Source: Methanolobus sp. (lineage in GTDB: Archaea; Halobacteriota; Methanosarcinia; Methanosarcinales; Methanosarcinaceae). From it: DNA of 47,662 nucleotides. Below the pieces are notes generated by a model, which saw nothing but the letters and a program-made list of their open reading frames with translations, was not told the origin of the DNA and searched no databases. The DNA is taken from positions 1 through 47,662 of the forward strand of contig JARVGJ010000018.1 in assembly GCA_029762595.1 (NCBI GenBank). Direction: 5' to 3'. Positions 6,534 to 18,509 of this stretch are shown piece after piece; position 1 is the stretch's first letter, and the number at the start of each line of letters is the position of its first letter. The translations under genes and the position numbers were made by a program.

Positions 6534-9500
6534 TTATGTTGTTATCTTCTTGTAAAGCAAAGGAAGTGTTTCAGGAAGTTTGCGGGCATCATCCATTATA
6601 GTGTAACCTACGTCTGAGAATATGTTTTCCAGGTAGTCCCCGGGACTTGAGTCCACTGTGATACAAAAGAGATGCATGCCCTTTGCATTAACTTCCTGTA
6701 TCGCTATCCTTGTGTCCTCTTCGGCAAAACGGCCCTGATAGGCGCTTTCACCTTTACATGTATCATATGGCTCTCCGTCGGATAATAATATGATTATTTT
6801 CGTTTTAGCTTTGACTTCTTCAAGCTTACTGATGGAATGGCGTATTGCAGAACCAAGCCGTGTATTGGATACCGGCTCCAGGATACTTATCCTTCGTGCA
6901 ATATCAGCAGACATTTCCTCTTCAAAACCCTTTACAACAAAATATTCGACCCCATCACGATTATGACCTGAAAATGCATTGATGGCATATTTGTCCCCTA
7001 TGCTCTCAAGTGCATGGGTCATTATGATCAGAGCATCCTTTTCCACATCTATTATGCTGCGTTTTTCCTCCCCAAGTGTCTTACGTGTGGAAGCACTGAC
7101 ATCAACAAGGAAAAGAGTGGCAACATCACGTTTTTGTTTTTCCCATCTTACATAGAGCCGGTCATCGGGATTTATTCCACATTTTTTTTCCATCAGTGAA
7201 TCTATGAAAGAGTCTATATCTATCTCACTTCCATCTATCTGTTGCTTAAGTTTCTGGAAATCCACAGGTTTCATGATGCTGAAAATGCGTTTAATAAGGG
7301 CAATTTCATTTCTGTAATGTTCTGTAGTGATGTCATAGTAACCGGAAGTACCACCAACCGGCTCGATCTCACTTACGGTGCACCAGTCCGATTTATAGTC
7401 ATTGATCACAAAGTCCCACTCATCATATCTGTAAGTGCCAAGTATCTTCCAGTTCTTGTCAAGGGCATATGTTACTTTTTTCTCTTCCTTTTCATCTATA
7501 TGCTCTGGTATTCTTTTCTTTTCCTCTTCTTTTACATCATCTTTTTCCGGAATGAAGTTCCTGATAAGAGTTTTAGTATCTTTGCTGTCGCTACTACCAG
7601 AGCTACAGGCACTTATGCTGACACCACGATAATCAATGTTTTTGAACATCTTCCATTCTCTTATTTCCAGTGGTCCCAGGTGATCATCTACCAGTTCGTA
7701 TATTTGAAAAGCTGCTTTAAGGGCATCAAGGACCGTAGATCTGGCTTTGAATACCCAGTCATGTATAATTTCACGTATCCTGTGCAGAATATTTTCATCG
7801 ATTTTAAAATACTGTGGATCAGGTTCATGATCTGTAGAGAGCCAGAGAAGTAAATCCATTATCTTTTCTATATCTCCTTCTGGAACTGGTCTTGATGATA
7901 ACATCTCATATCGTATTCTTTCAAGTTCCAGCCGTACACCTCTGTACTGGTCCATTATCATATACTCTATCCGTGCATCTTCAAGTATGCCCAGTATAGT
8001 TCCCGCAATTGCAGGATTGGGGAACAGGCCCAGAACTTCCGGTATTCCAATTGTTTCCATTCCATATAGTTGAATACGATTCTCCAGGCAGGGATCGATC
8101 GTACCATATTTTTCCTTTGGATAACGTCCGGATATCCTTTTCAGCAATCCGGAAGACTCATTAAGAGAGACTTGCATGGAACTGTGTTTGATATGTCCCA
8201 CCTCATGCATTATGCTTAGCTTGTATATCTTGAAATTGTTCTCCTGATTGCTGTATATACTCATTTTTGGTGCCAGATATATCGTTTTGCCATCAACTAC
8301 AGGATTGATGGAAGCTGCTCTATCTGCCATGGGCAGGAATTTTTTGGACCTTATGGTGAAATTAACACCACTGAGTCCCAATCCATAATAGTGAAGGATC
8401 TTTGAGACCTTTTTAAGTGCAACAGAACCGGTAAGTTCTGCAACGAACTCCTTTGAGATCTTTGATCTTAGAGAGAAATATGGTCTGCCACCCAGGTGAT
8501 TATCCTCTGAGATCAGGATTCCATTCAATGCCCATTCTTCAAGTTCCCCTATATCCAGCTCTGATAGAAGCTGCGGAGAATATGTAAAATAATCCACTGC
8601 AAATCTTTTATCCCGTTCGTATATTTTAACCCCTATGCCGGCCCATTTCCTTATTTCAGGTGTTTCCAGCTTTTCAATAGCTATAGGTAGTTTATCTATG
8701 AACATTCCGGCAAGAAGCCAGTCTTTTTCAAGTAGTATATGTGCTGTTGTAAGTATCTCCCCACAAGCATTTACAGGAAGGCGGTTGAAAATTATAACAG
8801 AGTTTCTGTAATAAGCGGAAGCAAAAACAGAGCTATTCCTTGCTATTTCTTCCCCTATGCTTATCCAGTCATTGAACCTGTTCTCTGTAAGCAGATCAAA
8901 TACTTCAGGAGCATGTGCGAAATAAGCTTCCAGATTATCTGGGTTTATAAGTGCAAGCCTGGCCCCTATATCAAGAAAATATGAACGCTCTTCTTTTTGA
9001 GTAGTTGATTTATATCTTGCCAATCCTTGAAAGCTACAATGTATGAATTGTTCAAGAGCATAGCCATTAAGACCAAACACTTCTATGAATCGGGTTATCC
9101 ATCCCTCTATCTCTTTCACTTCAATGACATCAAGAACTTCCAGGCCCTGATCTAAAAACGAAATCGATGCATCAATATTTGTTTTAGCAATATTACAAGC
9201 AATACAGGTCCATTCATGGAAACTTCTTTGATCAAGCAACATCATTAAACGAGGTGCATTTCTGAACAAAGCCAATGCAGGTGTGCTTCCATAGCCAAGG
9301 ATCATATTCATTGACATGAGTAATATTTCTTTGCTGTTGGCAGGAACGGATGAAAATACTTCCTTGCTTTTTTCCAGTATCTCAACAGCAGTTGCCCAGT
9401 TATCCCGTAGAATTTTCTCAATGATAAGATAAAAGACCTTTAGTTCCTCATATGAAAGAACATCCCCCAACCCCGAAAGATTCTCAAAATAGGATTCAGC

Positions 9501-10037
9501 AACCTGCACATTAGAAACAGCGAGTTCTTTACCGATGTCTGTTAGTTCTTCAAACCTCTCTGGTCTATTTTTTATCAGTACTTCCACACTATTTTTGAAA
9601 TAGGCAATCGCAATACTTTTGTTGCTCTTTGCCAGATCTATTCCAATATCTGTCCATTTCTCAAGAAGCCCGATATCCCCATTTTTAAGAACTGAAGGGG
9701 TAGACTCAAGGAAACCCTCTAAACAGAAGATGTTCAGTTGTGATACTTTTTCTGACAGCTGCGTCCAATTATCAAACTTTTTATCTCCGGTTAGTACATA
9801 CACAGTTGGCGCAACCCTGAGATAAGTTAAAAGAATCCTTCTTCCTTTTTTTGCAATCTTTATTCCTTGATTGAGTACAATTCGAAGCTCATTTACCGAA
9901 AGAACCTCGAAATTTACAATAATCGAAGAAATGTTTTCCTGATCAAGTTTGGGAAAGTAGGAACCTATCAACTCAATTAGCTCATTTTTCCTTAGATGAT
10001 CATCGTTTTTTATACTTGATGTCAATAGATCCTTCAC
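6534..10037 (-). CDS. Very large NorD-like VWA-domain protein with HExxH motif
   Basis: 1167 residues. The C-terminal ~230 residues form a von Willebrand A domain with the MIDAS motif DVSAST (near residue 977) and a later LLSDGEP motif, typical of NorD/CobT-like proteins that work as chaperones with MoxR-type AAA+ ATPases. The middle has a metallopeptidase-like HEVGH (near residue 610) inside a NorD-like region. The N-terminal ~500 residues contain degenerate helical repeats of about 35-40 residues, each with W/F-xx-IG-xx-A and a Y/F-F-x-x-S/A-P pair, reminiscent of HEAT-like repeats. A charged segment rich in K and E precedes the VWA domain. The start is GTG 10037; TTG 10025 after GAAGGA is an alternative. 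No MoxR gene is in the window, so its partner is elsewhere. Gene stands alone and converges with the ThDP enzyme. Confidence 0.75.
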   Translation of the reverse strand: MKDLLTSSIKNDDHLRKNELIELIGSYFPKLDQENISSIIVNFEVLSVNELRIVLNQGIKIAKKGRRILLTYLRVAPTVYVLTGDKKFDNWTQLSEKVSQLNIFCLEGFLESTPSVLKNGDIGLLEKWTDIGIDLAKSNKSIAIAYFKNSVEVLIKNRPERFEELTDIGKELAVSNVQVAESYFENLSGLGDVLSYEELKVFYLIIEKILRDNWATAVEILEKSKEVFSSVPANSKEILLMSMNMILGYGSTPALALFRNAPRLMMLLDQRSFHEWTCIACNIAKTNIDASISFLDQGLEVLDVIEVKEIEGWITRFIEVFGLNGYALEQFIHCSFQGLARYKSTTQKEERSYFLDIGARLALINPDNLEAYFAHAPEVFDLLTENRFNDWISIGEEIARNSSVFASAYYRNSVIIFNRLPVNACGEILTTAHILLEKDWLLAGMFIDKLPIAIEKLETPEIRKWAGIGVKIYERDKRFAVDYFTYSPQLLSELDIGELEEWALNGILISEDNHLGGRPYFSLRSKISKEFVAELTGSVALKKVSKILHYYGLGLSGVNFTIRSKKFLPMADRAASINPVVDGKTIYLAPKMSIYSNQENNFKIYKLSIMHEVGHIKHSSMQVSLNESSGLLKRISGRYPKEKYGTIDPCLENRIQLYGMETIGIPEVLGLFPNPAIAGTILGILEDARIEYMIMDQYRGVRLELERIRYEMLSSRPVPEGDIEKIMDLLLWLSTDHEPDPQYFKIDENILHRIREIIHDWVFKARSTVLDALKAAFQIYELVDDHLGPLEIREWKMFKNIDYRGVSISACSSGSSDSKDTKTLIRNFIPEKDDVKEEEKKRIPEHIDEKEEKKVTYALDKNWKILGTYRYDEWDFVINDYKSDWCTVSEIEPVGGTSGYYDITTEHYRNEIALIKRIFSIMKPVDFQKLKQQIDGSEIDIDSFIDSLMEKKCGINPDDRLYVRWEKQKRDVATLFLVDVSASTRKTLGEEKRSIIDVEKDALIIMTHALESIGDKYAINAFSGHNRDGVEYFVVKGFEEEMSADIARRISILEPVSNTRLGSAIRHSISKLEEVKAKTKIIILLSDGEPYDTCKGESAYQGRFAEEDTRIAIQEVNAKGMHLFCITVDSSPGDYLENIFSDVGYTIMDDARKLPETLPLLYKKITT

Positions 10038-15323: not shown

Positions 15324-15860
15324 TCAATCAAGTAGCAAAATACCAACGCATTTTATCCTTGCAAAGTTACAGTATCTAATTTCCAGTCCTTGTTTCTCCA
15401 TTAGACTGGACAGGTTTATTCCCACGGCTTCAGGTGGAAAACGCCTCATTTCCGGTTTATTGCATTGTTCGCCGCATGTCTCACATTCATTGCATGCACC
15501 GGGACGGATCAATTGCGCAAAGATGAATCCTTTTCTGAAAGCCATGTGTTCCAGTTCCAGCATCTTATGGAAGGAACCCTTGCGAAGTCCTGACCATGCC
15601 TTGAGTATATCTTTTTCGGCAGACGTTTCATGCTCTTCTATCAAAAGGATCGCCTGACTGTATTCCTTCAAAATTTCCCTGAAACTGTTAATGGAAATTA
15701 TATGTGGTGGACAGCTCAGGCGTTTTCCGTATCCTCTGCATCCAAAAGCACATTTTAGCTGCGCCCTGTTCTCCACATTGATCTCAGAGACATCAAGCAG
15801 GTAAGCTTCAAGCCCAATCTCTTTTGCTTTATCAAGAATTACTTGGGGATCCTTTATCAT
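15324..15860 (-). CDS. DUF2284 cysteine-rich metal-binding protein
   Basis: 178 residues with the DUF2284 (COG5423) cysteine pattern: CAFGCRGYGKRLSCPP near residues 37-52, then GACNECETCGEQCNKPEMRRFPPEAVGI near 122-149, and two more cysteines near the C-terminus. These proteins are predicted to bind iron-sulfur clusters or other metals; the reaction is unknown. AAGGGA precedes the ATG. It lies about 40 bases after the iscU-like gene and so probably ends the sulfur/Fe-S operon. Confidence 0.8.
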   Translation of the reverse strand: MIKDPQVILDKAKEIGLEAYLLDVSEINVENRAQLKCAFGCRGYGKRLSCPPHIISINSFREILKEYSQAILLIEEHETSAEKDILKAWSGLRKGSFHKMLELEHMAFRKGFIFAQLIRPGACNECETCGEQCNKPEMRRFPPEAVGINLSSLMEKQGLEIRYCNFARIKCVGILLLD

Positions 15861-15901: not shown

Positions 15902-16537
15902 TTATTCTGTAAAGACAACATTGACCTCAGTCACGTCCCATAGGGACTCGACCTTTTCCAGTATATCCTCTTTGATGGCTGCTGCAAACTGGTGATTGGA
16001 AGGCAGATCCAGAAGTATCCTGACAATCCCATCATTGACATCTATCTTTGTAACCAGCTCCGTCCTGATTATATCAAGCCCTGCCATGGGATTCATCACG
16101 TGTTTAAGCCTGCTTCTGACCACATCAGGTGTAGTGACTTCTTTTTCACTCACAAGGCCGTGCTTTTCTTCATAATCGCGGATTGAGGCCCTCAAACCTT
16201 CAACTGCAAGCACCGAGCAATGTGCTTTCACAGGTGGCAGTCCTCCAAGCTCCTCTGTTGCCTGCTGCCATGTTATGTTCTTTGCTTCATCTATGGTCTT
16301 TCCTTTTGCAAGTTCTGTGATTATGGAAGCTGTGGCAATATTGGAGGCACATCCATATGATTCGAACTTGATATCCTCAATAACCTGTGTTTCCGGGTTT
16401 ACCTGCAGGTAAACAGCAACCATGTCCCCACAAGCCGGACTGCCTTCCAGTCCCTTACCATCCGGATTCTCCATTTTTCCCACGTTACGGGGGTTTTTGA
16501 AATGCTCAAGCACCTTTTCAGTATACGGGAATTTCAT
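15902..16537 (-). CDS. iscU: IscU-type Fe-S scaffold fused to a DUF59-like domain
   Basis: 211 residues. The first ~125 are IscU: the three cluster-binding cysteines occur in SPACGDMV, YGCASNIATAS and AHCSVLAVEG, and the conserved Asp follows the first Cys. The remaining ~75 residues (RSRLKHVMNPMAGLDIIRTELVTKIDV...VRILLDLPS...VESLWDVTEVNVVF) resemble a MIP18/DUF59 assembly domain. It should assemble and deliver Fe-S clusters in the cytoplasm. GAGGTG precedes the ATG. It follows the IscS-like gene by 32 bases, the usual IscS-IscU pairing. LPPVKAHC replaces the usual LPPxKxHC, so the scaffold appears intact. Confidence 0.85.
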   Translation of the reverse strand: MKFPYTEKVLEHFKNPRNVGKMENPDGKGLEGSPACGDMVAVYLQVNPETQVIEDIKFESYGCASNIATASIITELAKGKTIDEAKNITWQQATEELGGLPPVKAHCSVLAVEGLRASIRDYEEKHGLVSEKEVTTPDVVRSRLKHVMNPMAGLDIIRTELVTKIDVNDGIVRILLDLPSNHQFAAAIKEDILEKVESLWDVTEVNVVFTE

Positions 16538-16569: not shown

Positions 16570-17736
16570 TTATTTGTTGTACAGTGGACTGATGGCCCTT
16601 AACTGGCTGACGATCTCTTTTATTGCATCTACAACAGCATCCACATCCTGCATGCTGTTGTAGCGTCCGAATGTGAATCTTATGGAACCGTGTGCCCGTT
16701 CATGATCACCACCAATGCCAAGTATGACATGGCTGGCCTCAAGTGAACGGCTGAAACAGGCTGAGCCGGTGCTTACTGCAAAACCTCTCATATCCAGGTG
16801 CAGTGTCATTGACTCTCCCTCTACATAATGGAAAGTGATATTTGCATTATGTGGTGTCCTCTGGTTCTTACTTCCGTTAAGGGTCACGTGAGGGATCTCC
16901 TCAAAGACCCTCTTGATTGTGTAATCACGCAGTGAAGAAAGGAATTCATTCTCTTTCTGGCTCACAAGTTCCACTGCCTTTGCAAAACCAACTGCACCTG
17001 GTATATTCTCAAGCCCACCGCGGCGGTTTGATTCCTGGTATCCGCCATCCATCCACTTCTCAAGGGGTGTGCCTTTACGAACGTATAATGCACCAACACC
17101 TCTTGGACCATGTATGGTATGTGCTGACATTGTTATCAAGTCCACCGGTGTTTTTGATACATCCATAGGACTCCTCATGTAACTGTGGGTGGCATCAGTG
17201 TGCAGCAGCACGTCTTTTTCTTTACATATCAGCGCAATTGCATCCATATCCTGAAGCGTTCCTATTTCCTGATTGGCATGCTGTATGGACACAAGCACTG
17301 TATCATCACGTATCTTACCTTTTAATTCCTCAAGATCTGCTATACCATCTGCATTCACAGCGATGTAGTCTACTTCCCAGCCCTGCTTCTCAAGGTTTTT
17401 TGCAGTGTTCAGTACGGGGAAATCCTCTATCTTTGATACAATCAGGTGTTGTCCCTTTTTTTTCTTTAAAGCGGCACATACACCTTTTATTGCCATATTA
17501 CTTGACTCGGTATCTCCTGATGTGAATACTATTTCATCTGCTGTGGCACCAAGAGAAGATGCGATTACACCGCGGGCCTGTTCCAGTCCTTCTTTTGCAT
17601 CAATACCCATCGAGTATCCGAATTCTGATGTAGCCACTGCATATGTATCAAAATAATAGGGCTTCATTGCGTCCAGTACCTTTTCATCCAGTCGTGTGCT
17701 GGCAGAATTATCAAGATATATCATTTTATCGAACAT
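16570..17736 (-). CDS. IscS/NifS-like protein lacking the PLP-binding lysine
   Basis: 388 residues of the class V aminotransferase/cysteine desulfurase fold: YLDNSASTRLD start, SGDTESSNMAI, SIQHANQEIGT, HTDA, and the mobile-loop cysteine in STGSACFSRSLEASHV (Cys327). However the Schiff-base lysine of S-x-H-K is Thr207 (SAHTIHGPRG), and the PLP-stacking histidine of the IEH-x-AV motif is Asp (KIEDFPVL). I checked both in the DNA. It therefore should not be a normal PLP desulfurase. Archaeoglobus fulgidus IscS, which also lacks this lysine, is known to be inactive as a desulfurase and to offer its cysteine as a cluster ligand to IscU. Start ATG 17736 follows GAGGAGA; the neighbour is its likely IscU partner. 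Confidence 0.85.
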   Translation of the reverse strand: MFDKMIYLDNSASTRLDEKVLDAMKPYYFDTYAVATSEFGYSMGIDAKEGLEQARGVIASSLGATADEIVFTSGDTESSNMAIKGVCAALKKKKGQHLIVSKIEDFPVLNTAKNLEKQGWEVDYIAVNADGIADLEELKGKIRDDTVLVSIQHANQEIGTLQDMDAIALICKEKDVLLHTDATHSYMRSPMDVSKTPVDLITMSAHTIHGPRGVGALYVRKGTPLEKWMDGGYQESNRRGGLENIPGAVGFAKAVELVSQKENEFLSSLRDYTIKRVFEEIPHVTLNGSKNQRTPHNANITFHYVEGESMTLHLDMRGFAVSTGSACFSRSLEASHVILGIGGDHERAHGSIRFTFGRYNSMQDVDAVVDAIKEIVSQLRAISPLYNK

Positions 17737-17836: not shown

Positions 17837-18256
17837 TCATATGAAAAGCGTTATGCCAGCATCTTTTGCTTCCATTATATAAGTGCCCACTGCACCATAA
17901 TCATCTATCCATTCCTGCTGCAATTGCTCGGGTTTTATTCCCATGATCTCCATTGTCATCTCACAGGCTATGACCTTACCTCCAAGTTCCCTGAAGTCGG
18001 TCATAAGCTTCTCAAGCGAAACAACATTTGCTTTTTTCATCCTGCTTTTAACCATCCACTTCCCAAGACCCAGGAAATTCATCTTAGAGAGCGGACCTTT
18101 ATCGAGTCCGTTCTTCTTCAGGCGTTCAAGTCCCCAGAAAGTAAAGAAAAGAGAAGCATCCATGCCCATGGAGAGCGCACCATTGCCAACTATAAGGGCA
18201 CTGTAGATCTTGTCGATGTCCCCGCTATGAACTATTATTACTGTCTTTCCCGTCAT
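17837..18256 (-). CDS. DsrE/DsrF-like sulfur-transfer family protein
   Basis: 139 residues: KTVIIVHSGDIDKIYSALIVGNGALSMGMDASLFFTFWGLERL is the DsrE-like (COG2210) opening, and VIACEMTMEIMGI holds the usual conserved cysteine near residue 100. Such proteins carry persulfide sulfur or associate with sulfur-relay partners. The start ATG 18256 follows GGGGGAGG; an earlier in-frame start would overlap tusA. It lies 31 bases after tusA and 100 bases before the IscS-like gene. Confidence 0.8.
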   Translation of the reverse strand: MTGKTVIIVHSGDIDKIYSALIVGNGALSMGMDASLFFTFWGLERLKKNGLDKGPLSKMNFLGLGKWMVKSRMKKANVVSLEKLMTDFRELGGKVIACEMTMEIMGIKPEQLQQEWIDDYGAVGTYIMEAKDAGITLFI

Positions 18257-18287: not shown

Positions 18288-18509
18288 TTATCTCTTAATA
18301 CGGATCTTCCATTCGTTGTCGTTCCCTTCAACTTCCATGACTTCAAGTCCCATTGACTCACATGCCATTGGTATCTCTTTCTTGGAAGCAGGATGAGTGC
18401 CCACTATGATTATCTCATCTCCAGGTGCTGCCTTTTTAAGTGCTTTACGGCATTCCACCAGAGGAACAGGACATGTCTGCCCTCTTACATCAATATTCGT
18501 TTCTGTCAT
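18288..18509 (-). CDS. tusA: TusA/SirA-family sulfurtransferase
   Basis: 73 residues. The signature CPxP motif occurs in DVRGQTCPVPLVECRKAL (Cys near residue 13), followed by the GDEIIIVGTHPASKKEIPMACESMG beta-alpha-beta pattern of TusA. These proteins hand persulfide sulfur along relay chains. It heads a minus-strand gene set with dsrE-like, iscS-like and iscU genes. AAAGGG precedes the ATG. Confidence 0.88.
   Translation of the reverse strand: MTETNIDVRGQTCPVPLVECRKALKKAAPGDEIIIVGTHPASKKEIPMACESMGLEVMEVEGNDNEWKIRIKR

Follow-up and report, generated by a model that had tools for sequence, protein, structure and literature searches.

What can an IscS protein contribute to Fe-S cluster assembly when it has lost the Schiff-base lysine of the cysteine desulfurases? 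The question is raised by a gene, here called iscS*, in a stretch of 47,662 nucleotides (the window), which is the whole of contig C9 of a Methanolobus genome of 2.43 Mb in 58 contigs. A sequence-only reading of this stretch had proposed that the product, paired with IscU and accompanied by TusA and DsrE-like proteins, forms an Fe-S or persulfide system that does not use cysteine as its sulfur source, and perhaps uses sulfide directly. The features concerned are collected in Table 1. Elsewhere in the window, a 1167-aa ORF (6534-10037, minus strand) has a C-terminal part that resembles a von Willebrand A domain.

Table 1. Features of the iscS* region, in window coordinates
Feature	Position	Strand	Description
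DUF2284 gene	15324..15860	-	Downstream of iscU*; Pfam
iscU*	15902..16537	-	IscU/NifU_N scaffold with C-terminal FeS_assembly_P (DUF59/MIP18-like) domain
iscS*	16570..17736	-	388 aa, IscS fold without PLP lysine; ORF, Pfam, alignment, AlphaFold
Cys327 codon TGT	16756..16758	-	Mobile-loop Cys retained, motif STGSAC-F
Thr207 codon ACC	17116..17118	-	Replaces Schiff-base lysine (SAHK to SAHT)
His184 codon CAC	17185..17187	-	Replaces PLP-contacting Gln (DAVQ to DATH)
Asp105 codon GAT	17422..17424	-	Replaces PLP-stacking histidine (IEH to IED)
dsrE2	17837..18256	-	DsrE2-family sulfur carrier, 139 aa, conserved Cys in ACxMTMEIMG
tusA	18288..18509	-	TusA-family sulfur carrier, 73 aa, CPVP motif

An IscS fold with an altered cofactor pocket

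The reading frame of iscS* is intact, as had been claimed: it opens with the ATG at 17736, is preceded by AGAGGAGAG upstream of this codon, and holds zero internal stops. Its product matches Pfam Aminotran_5 with an E value of 8.7e-73, which places it in the aminotransferase class V fold, and its AlphaFold model (mean pLDDT 92.8, below 50 only at residues 326-331, in the mobile loop) reaches TM scores of 0.91-0.96 to the IscS of E. coli, human and Archaeoglobus fulgidus. Alignment to solved IscS structures confirmed the replacements of the lysine by Thr207 and of the histidine by Asp105, as well as the retention of Cys327. Both losses had been named by the sequence-only reading, which had missed a third change in the pocket, Gln to His184. 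Asn155, Asp181 and Arg353 are retained. Mapping of the residues on class V desulfurases and on A. fulgidus IscS upheld the loss of the lysine.

Compared with the canonical IscS/NifS enzymes (E. coli 1p3w, human NFS1), IscS* thus shares the fold (TM 0.93-0.95), the IscU partner and the mobile loop with its persulfide-carrying cysteine, but lacks the PLP lysine, the stacking histidine and the glutamine. Its scores lie below every listed NCBIfam desulfurase cut-off, for example 424.8 against 530.75 bits for TIGR03402, and 377.5 against 548 bits for NF010611.

The search for a second intact IscS in the genome gave a lysine-bearing (K-type) gene on contig C11 (246069-247214), intact and with its own IscU partner (245654-246037). 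Two more lysine-bearing, SufS-like class V proteins are encoded, so that cysteine desulfuration is still possible in this cell. As a statement on the whole cell, the proposal of a cysteine-free system therefore does not hold.

A clade spread over two domains

The same substitutions were found in the Methanosarcinaceae orthologues first compared, wherever these were covered. GTDB species genomes were then scanned with the alignment of these orthologues, and 80 of the 146 candidates were analysed (65-89% identity). The residue counts refer to 81 members, which form one clade with 100/100 support, called T-type below. Among the matches listed, 80/81 members have Asp105, 81/81 His184, 80/81 Thr207 and 81/81 Cys327. 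At the sites of the three replaced residues, His, Gln and Lys occur without exception in the lysine-bearing comparators. The departures are Leu in place of Thr207 in an Anaerolineae copy, and Asn in place of Asp105 in a Halanaerobiales copy (L120/L122). Other cofactor or substrate contacts of IscS (Asp181, Asn155, Arg353, Thr76) are kept. Among the matches listed, His206 is present in 79/81 members, and the phosphate-binding Ser204 is changed to Ala in 19/81. Lys227 is invariant in the 81 members listed and specific to T-type, not being conserved in K-type. His303 and His313 are likewise near-invariant and T-type-specific, and are variable in lysine-bearing IscS.

Methanomicrobia provide 42 of the 80 listed loci; the other hosts belong to Methanofastidiosia, Thermoplasmatota, Heimdallarchaeota, Chloroflexota, Bacillota, Atribacterota, Nitrospirota, Actinomycetota and more, about ten phyla from both domains among the matches listed. 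The genome scan thereby ruled out that we are dealing with an oddity of Methanosarcinaceae. The bacterial members come mostly from MAGs, and include one cultured isolate, Anaerobium acetethylicum, and two chromosome-level MAGs of Dehalococcoidales. The fused IscU described below was found in 56 of 393 sampled genomes of the window's phylum, all 56 in the window's family, in 7 of 301 sampled Chloroflexota genomes, and in 2 of 199 from the phylum of Anaerobium. Common in Methanosarcinaceae and scattered elsewhere, it is distributed as would be expected of horizontal transfer.

In some hosts IscS* has no close homologue at its side. It is the sole IscS of a complete Methanococcoides-like genome (G028), where only more distant SufS-like proteins are found besides it, and where IscU* is the sole IscU. 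In five MAGs it is present with no other IscS/SufS-like protein.

A four-gene cassette

TusA and DsrE2 are encoded directly upstream of iscS* on the same strand, in the order tusA-dsrE2-iscS*-iscU*. The four genes are complete in 64 of the 74 listed T-type loci with both flanks, nearly always in the same order, and the genes outside them differ or are unrelated from one locus to another. The gene for DUF2284 that follows iscU* in the window was considered as a fifth member; it adjoins 10 of the 80 listed iscS* copies, a minority of the archaeal ones, and is therefore probably not part of the cassette. In three Dehalococcoidia loci (L107, L111 and L118), one or two Asp/Glu-racemase-like genes stand between iscS* and iscU*, with a radical-SAM-like gene nearby. 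At L088, L097 and L104, the T-type cassette is followed on its 3' side by an FdhD-like gene and by an IscS-IscU pair whose IscS bears the lysine.

The partner named by the sequence-only reading is indeed an IscU scaffold, although not a plain one, as it carries a C-terminal FeS_assembly_P/DUF59 domain (49.4 bits against a Pfam gathering score of 23.5), which in the window copy is without cysteine. This fusion is present in all 78 listed T-type loci having room downstream, and the cluster-site residues Cys36, Asp38, Cys63 and Cys107 are conserved (79 and 46 aligned sequences). The carriers are recognised by Pfam: TusA scores 79.3 against a gathering score of 28.6 bits and has its CPxP motif, and DsrE2 scores 116.7 against 25 bits for DrsE_2, with a conserved AC motif, and 60.1 against 210 for the NCBIfam DsrE2 equivalog, below that cut-off. 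Each is the sole gene of its Pfam family in the window genome; the position of tusA in the cassette thus ties the only TusA of the cell to the lysine-less IscS, and not to the lysine-bearing one.

Relation to the IscS of Archaeoglobus fulgidus

The sequence-only reading had likened IscS* to the IscS of A. fulgidus. Both are lysine-less, with the IscS fold, the loop cysteine, an IscU and adjoining tusA/dsrE genes (4eb5, 4eb7 and 4hvk for the A. fulgidus pair), but they belong to different lysine-less clades. In A. fulgidus IscS the lysine is replaced by Asp, the stacking histidine is kept, Gln is replaced by Ala, His206 by Asn and Arg353 by Leu, and its IscU is without the DUF59 fusion. The same replacements define the A. 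fulgidus type (D-type), in which the Arg353 site is mostly Leu or Val. The site pattern is DHHTCR in IscS* against HANDC[LVEI] in D-type, which places the window copy outside the latter. D-type forms its own clade with 100/98 support. T-type and D-type were joined with 70/64 support in the careful tree and separated in the quick tree, and a single clade uniting the two was not rejected by the AU test (p 0.805).

Both iscS copies of A. fulgidus are D-type (genome G692, 2,178,400 bp, with 100% identity to 4eb5); one lies in a tusA-dsrE-iscS-iscU operon, and its counterpart in a dsrE-iscS-iscU operon. In both operons (L312:687-3862 and L313:2545-4796) iscU is followed by a helix-turn-helix-like gene, the two being closely similar, and one of the operons also has a DsrE2-like gene downstream. 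Elsewhere in D-type the orders are tusA-iscS-iscU, tusA-dsrE-iscS-iscU and dsrE-iscS-iscU, and in the last of these IscU is often fused to a thioredoxin-reductase-like flavoprotein. Such an IscU-Pyr_redox_2 fusion lies directly after the genes for DsrE and the K-to-D IscS at L226 (597-1928, minus strand) and in order-level relatives (L230-L239); at L226 it is followed by a rubrerythrin-like gene.

Sulfur carriers accompany lysine-less IscS

Carrier neighbours were sought with iterated TusA and DsrE profiles, on the same strand and within about 1.6 kb, after removal of duplicates. Loci were typed by their actual residues, by which L292, L294, L296 and L298 are lysine-less and L241 is K-type. 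A TusA or DsrE neighbour was found at 43/43 distinct D-type loci, at 70 of the 80 listed T-type loci, and at 0/44 K-type loci, several of which share a genome with a lysine-less locus. Taken together, 113 of 123 lysine-less loci have carriers against none of the 44 lysine-bearing ones (Fisher p 5e-31, a value that ignores shared ancestry); the association may go back to one or two independent origins only. The relevance of TusA and DsrE, noticed from the window, is thus far stronger than the window itself shows. The linkage also favours carrier-bound sulfane sulfur over the free sulfide that had been envisaged.

Six of the ten T-type loci that lack a carrier neighbour belong to Methanococcoides, whose copies have no tusA-dsrE2 near iscS*; two border on a contig end, and in the remaining two tusA stands at a distance of 2.2 kb. 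In G028, the tusA-dsrE2 pair is found about 130 kb from the iscS*-iscU* pair, both pairs being retained.

How might a lysine-less IscS be used?

We favour a reading, in which our confidence is evenly balanced, where IscS* is not a desulfurase but a partner for docking and persulfide relay, through whose Cys327 sulfur from the carriers would reach IscU*. TusA and/or DsrE2 would bring sulfane sulfur to IscS*, either onto Cys327 or directly onto docked IscU*, and IscS* would serve as docking platform, as persulfide relay and perhaps as temporary cluster ligand. The cluster would be assembled on IscU* and handed on, possibly with the help of the fused DUF59 domain, while cysteine desulfuration would be left to other enzymes or bypassed. 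The carriers might themselves be loaded from sulfide, polysulfide, thiosulfate or another desulfurase. Structures in which the IscS fold docks TusA (3lvj) and IscU (3lvl) are among the matches of the IscS* model. In E. coli sulfur flows from IscS to TusA, so that gene adjacency argues for a functional linkage and not for a direction of sulfur flow. A further point against this reading is the invariant, T-type-specific Lys227, which may lie in the pocket.

Three further scenarios keep a functional IscS* at the service of IscU* or of a substrate of its own. IscS* may dock IscU* as a co-scaffold without any persulfide relay, Cys327 being a cluster ligand and free sulfide the sulfur source. This is unlikely, though several observations speak for it: A. 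fulgidus IscS, for which the same has been proposed, provides a cysteine ligand to the IscU-bound cluster and has no desulfurase activity (according to the passages of PMC7585200 dealing with this protein), sulfide can feed clusters in E. coli without IscS given IscU (PMC13015791), the hosts are anaerobic, and neither Cys327 nor any of the three IscU cysteines varies. The near-perfect linkage to TusA/DsrE would have no explanation here, however, and A. fulgidus too has tusA-dsrE-iscS-iscU. We find it improbable that IscS* binds PLP or PMP, non-covalently or via Lys227, for some other PLP/PMP chemistry on a cysteine-like substrate. The joint loss of histidine, glutamine and lysine, with Ser changed to Ala in a quarter of the members, exceeds what is expected of PLP use, even though Asp181, Asn155, Arg353 and Thr76 are kept, and Lys227 is both invariant and T-type-specific. 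In favour of such chemistry, the ColD and E1 dehydrases function with His replacing the lysine. More doubtful still is a conversion of the PLP pocket into a metal site, made of Asp105, Asp181, His184 and His206, by which IscS* would supply iron, not sulfur, to IscU*. Metal-type ligands are fixed there (Asp105 in 80 and His184 in all of the 81 members listed, beside Asp181 and the His206 of 79), but the invariant Cys327 loop argues for a role in sulfur transfer, and the D-type replacements differ (His kept, Ala, Asn, Asp).

The last two scenarios deny IscS* a pathway of its own. As a regulatory pseudoenzyme, it would tune the K-type IscS of the cell, as a heterodimer or as a competitor for IscU. 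Both kinds of IscS are indeed encoded in the window genome, but IscS* is the sole IscS of G028 and the sole IscS/SufS-like protein of the five MAGs, has its own fused IscU, and is only 42-50% identical to K-type IscS, which makes this very improbable. That IscS* is a decaying paralogue is hardly credible, although it has been suggested that the homologous IscS1 of Methanosarcina acetivorans may be non-functional (PMC7585200). The 81 members fix the same changes, the loop cysteine among them is invariant, the operon is intact across domains, and dN/dS among Methanolobus copies has a median of 0.04 and a maximum of 0.07 (68 pairs), the mark of purifying selection; iscS* is therefore not a decayed copy.

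Relation to known systems

The missing lysine is already known, both in A. fulgidus IscS and in M. acetivorans IscS1, which Deere et al. (2020; PMC7585200) likened to each other. These authors placed the IscS1-IscU1 locus (MA0808-MA0807) in a cluster with four further genes whose function is unknown, and took IscS1, which ended up in inclusion bodies, no further; they mark this protein as present in the proteome, whereas their text has only IscS2/IscU2 consistently detected. IscS1 resembles IscS* in having no catalytic lysine and an STGSACFS loop, and IscU1, at 24.2 kDa, is as large as the fused IscU*. Judging by the traits that the window pair shares with the IscS1 group (no lysine, an STGSACFS loop, an adjoining fused IscU of about 24 kDa), the two pairs are almost certainly orthologous, and many Methanosarcina members are found among the T-type loci L071-L109. 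The main text of PMC7585200 mentions no DUF59 fusion, does not name TusA or DsrE2, and describes no bacterial lysine-less form. The rhd-tusA-dsrE2 and dsrE3A-dsrE2B-tusA clusters (PMC4175335) likewise have adjoining TusA and DsrE2 as putative sulfur carriers, but are tied to Hdr/Dsr sulfur oxidation, whereas the cassette is tied to an IscS-IscU pair.

No report of a lysine-less IscS together with TusA/DsrE was found in the literature searched, which lay mostly outside the subscription journals. As far as this literature shows, three things are new: the clade with three fixed changes across both domains, its constant association with an IscU fused to DUF59, and the TusA/DsrE linkage of both lysine-less clades.

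Conclusions

Judged from sequence and gene order, our analysis suggests that cells with the cassette may draw the sulfur of their Fe-S clusters from carriers and not from cysteine: if TusA/DsrE hand sulfane sulfur to IscU by way of an IscS that is no longer catalytic, cysteine would not be required as the direct donor for ISC. Somewhat more tentatively, the two lysine-less clades, one of them including A. fulgidus, may represent a general carrier-fed, PLP-independent ISC system of anaerobic archaea and bacteria. The question bears on the sulfur supply for Fe-S clusters in many anaerobic archaea, and on the puzzle of an A. fulgidus IscS unable to free sulfur from cysteine, for which, as for the second clade with members in both domains, TusA/DsrE provide a concrete and testable missing partner. 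Should the relay be wrong, the conserved changes of the pocket would be the sign of another function in a very common fold. If it is right, IscS would act widely in a capacity other than that of an enzyme, and clusters could be assembled independently of cysteine.
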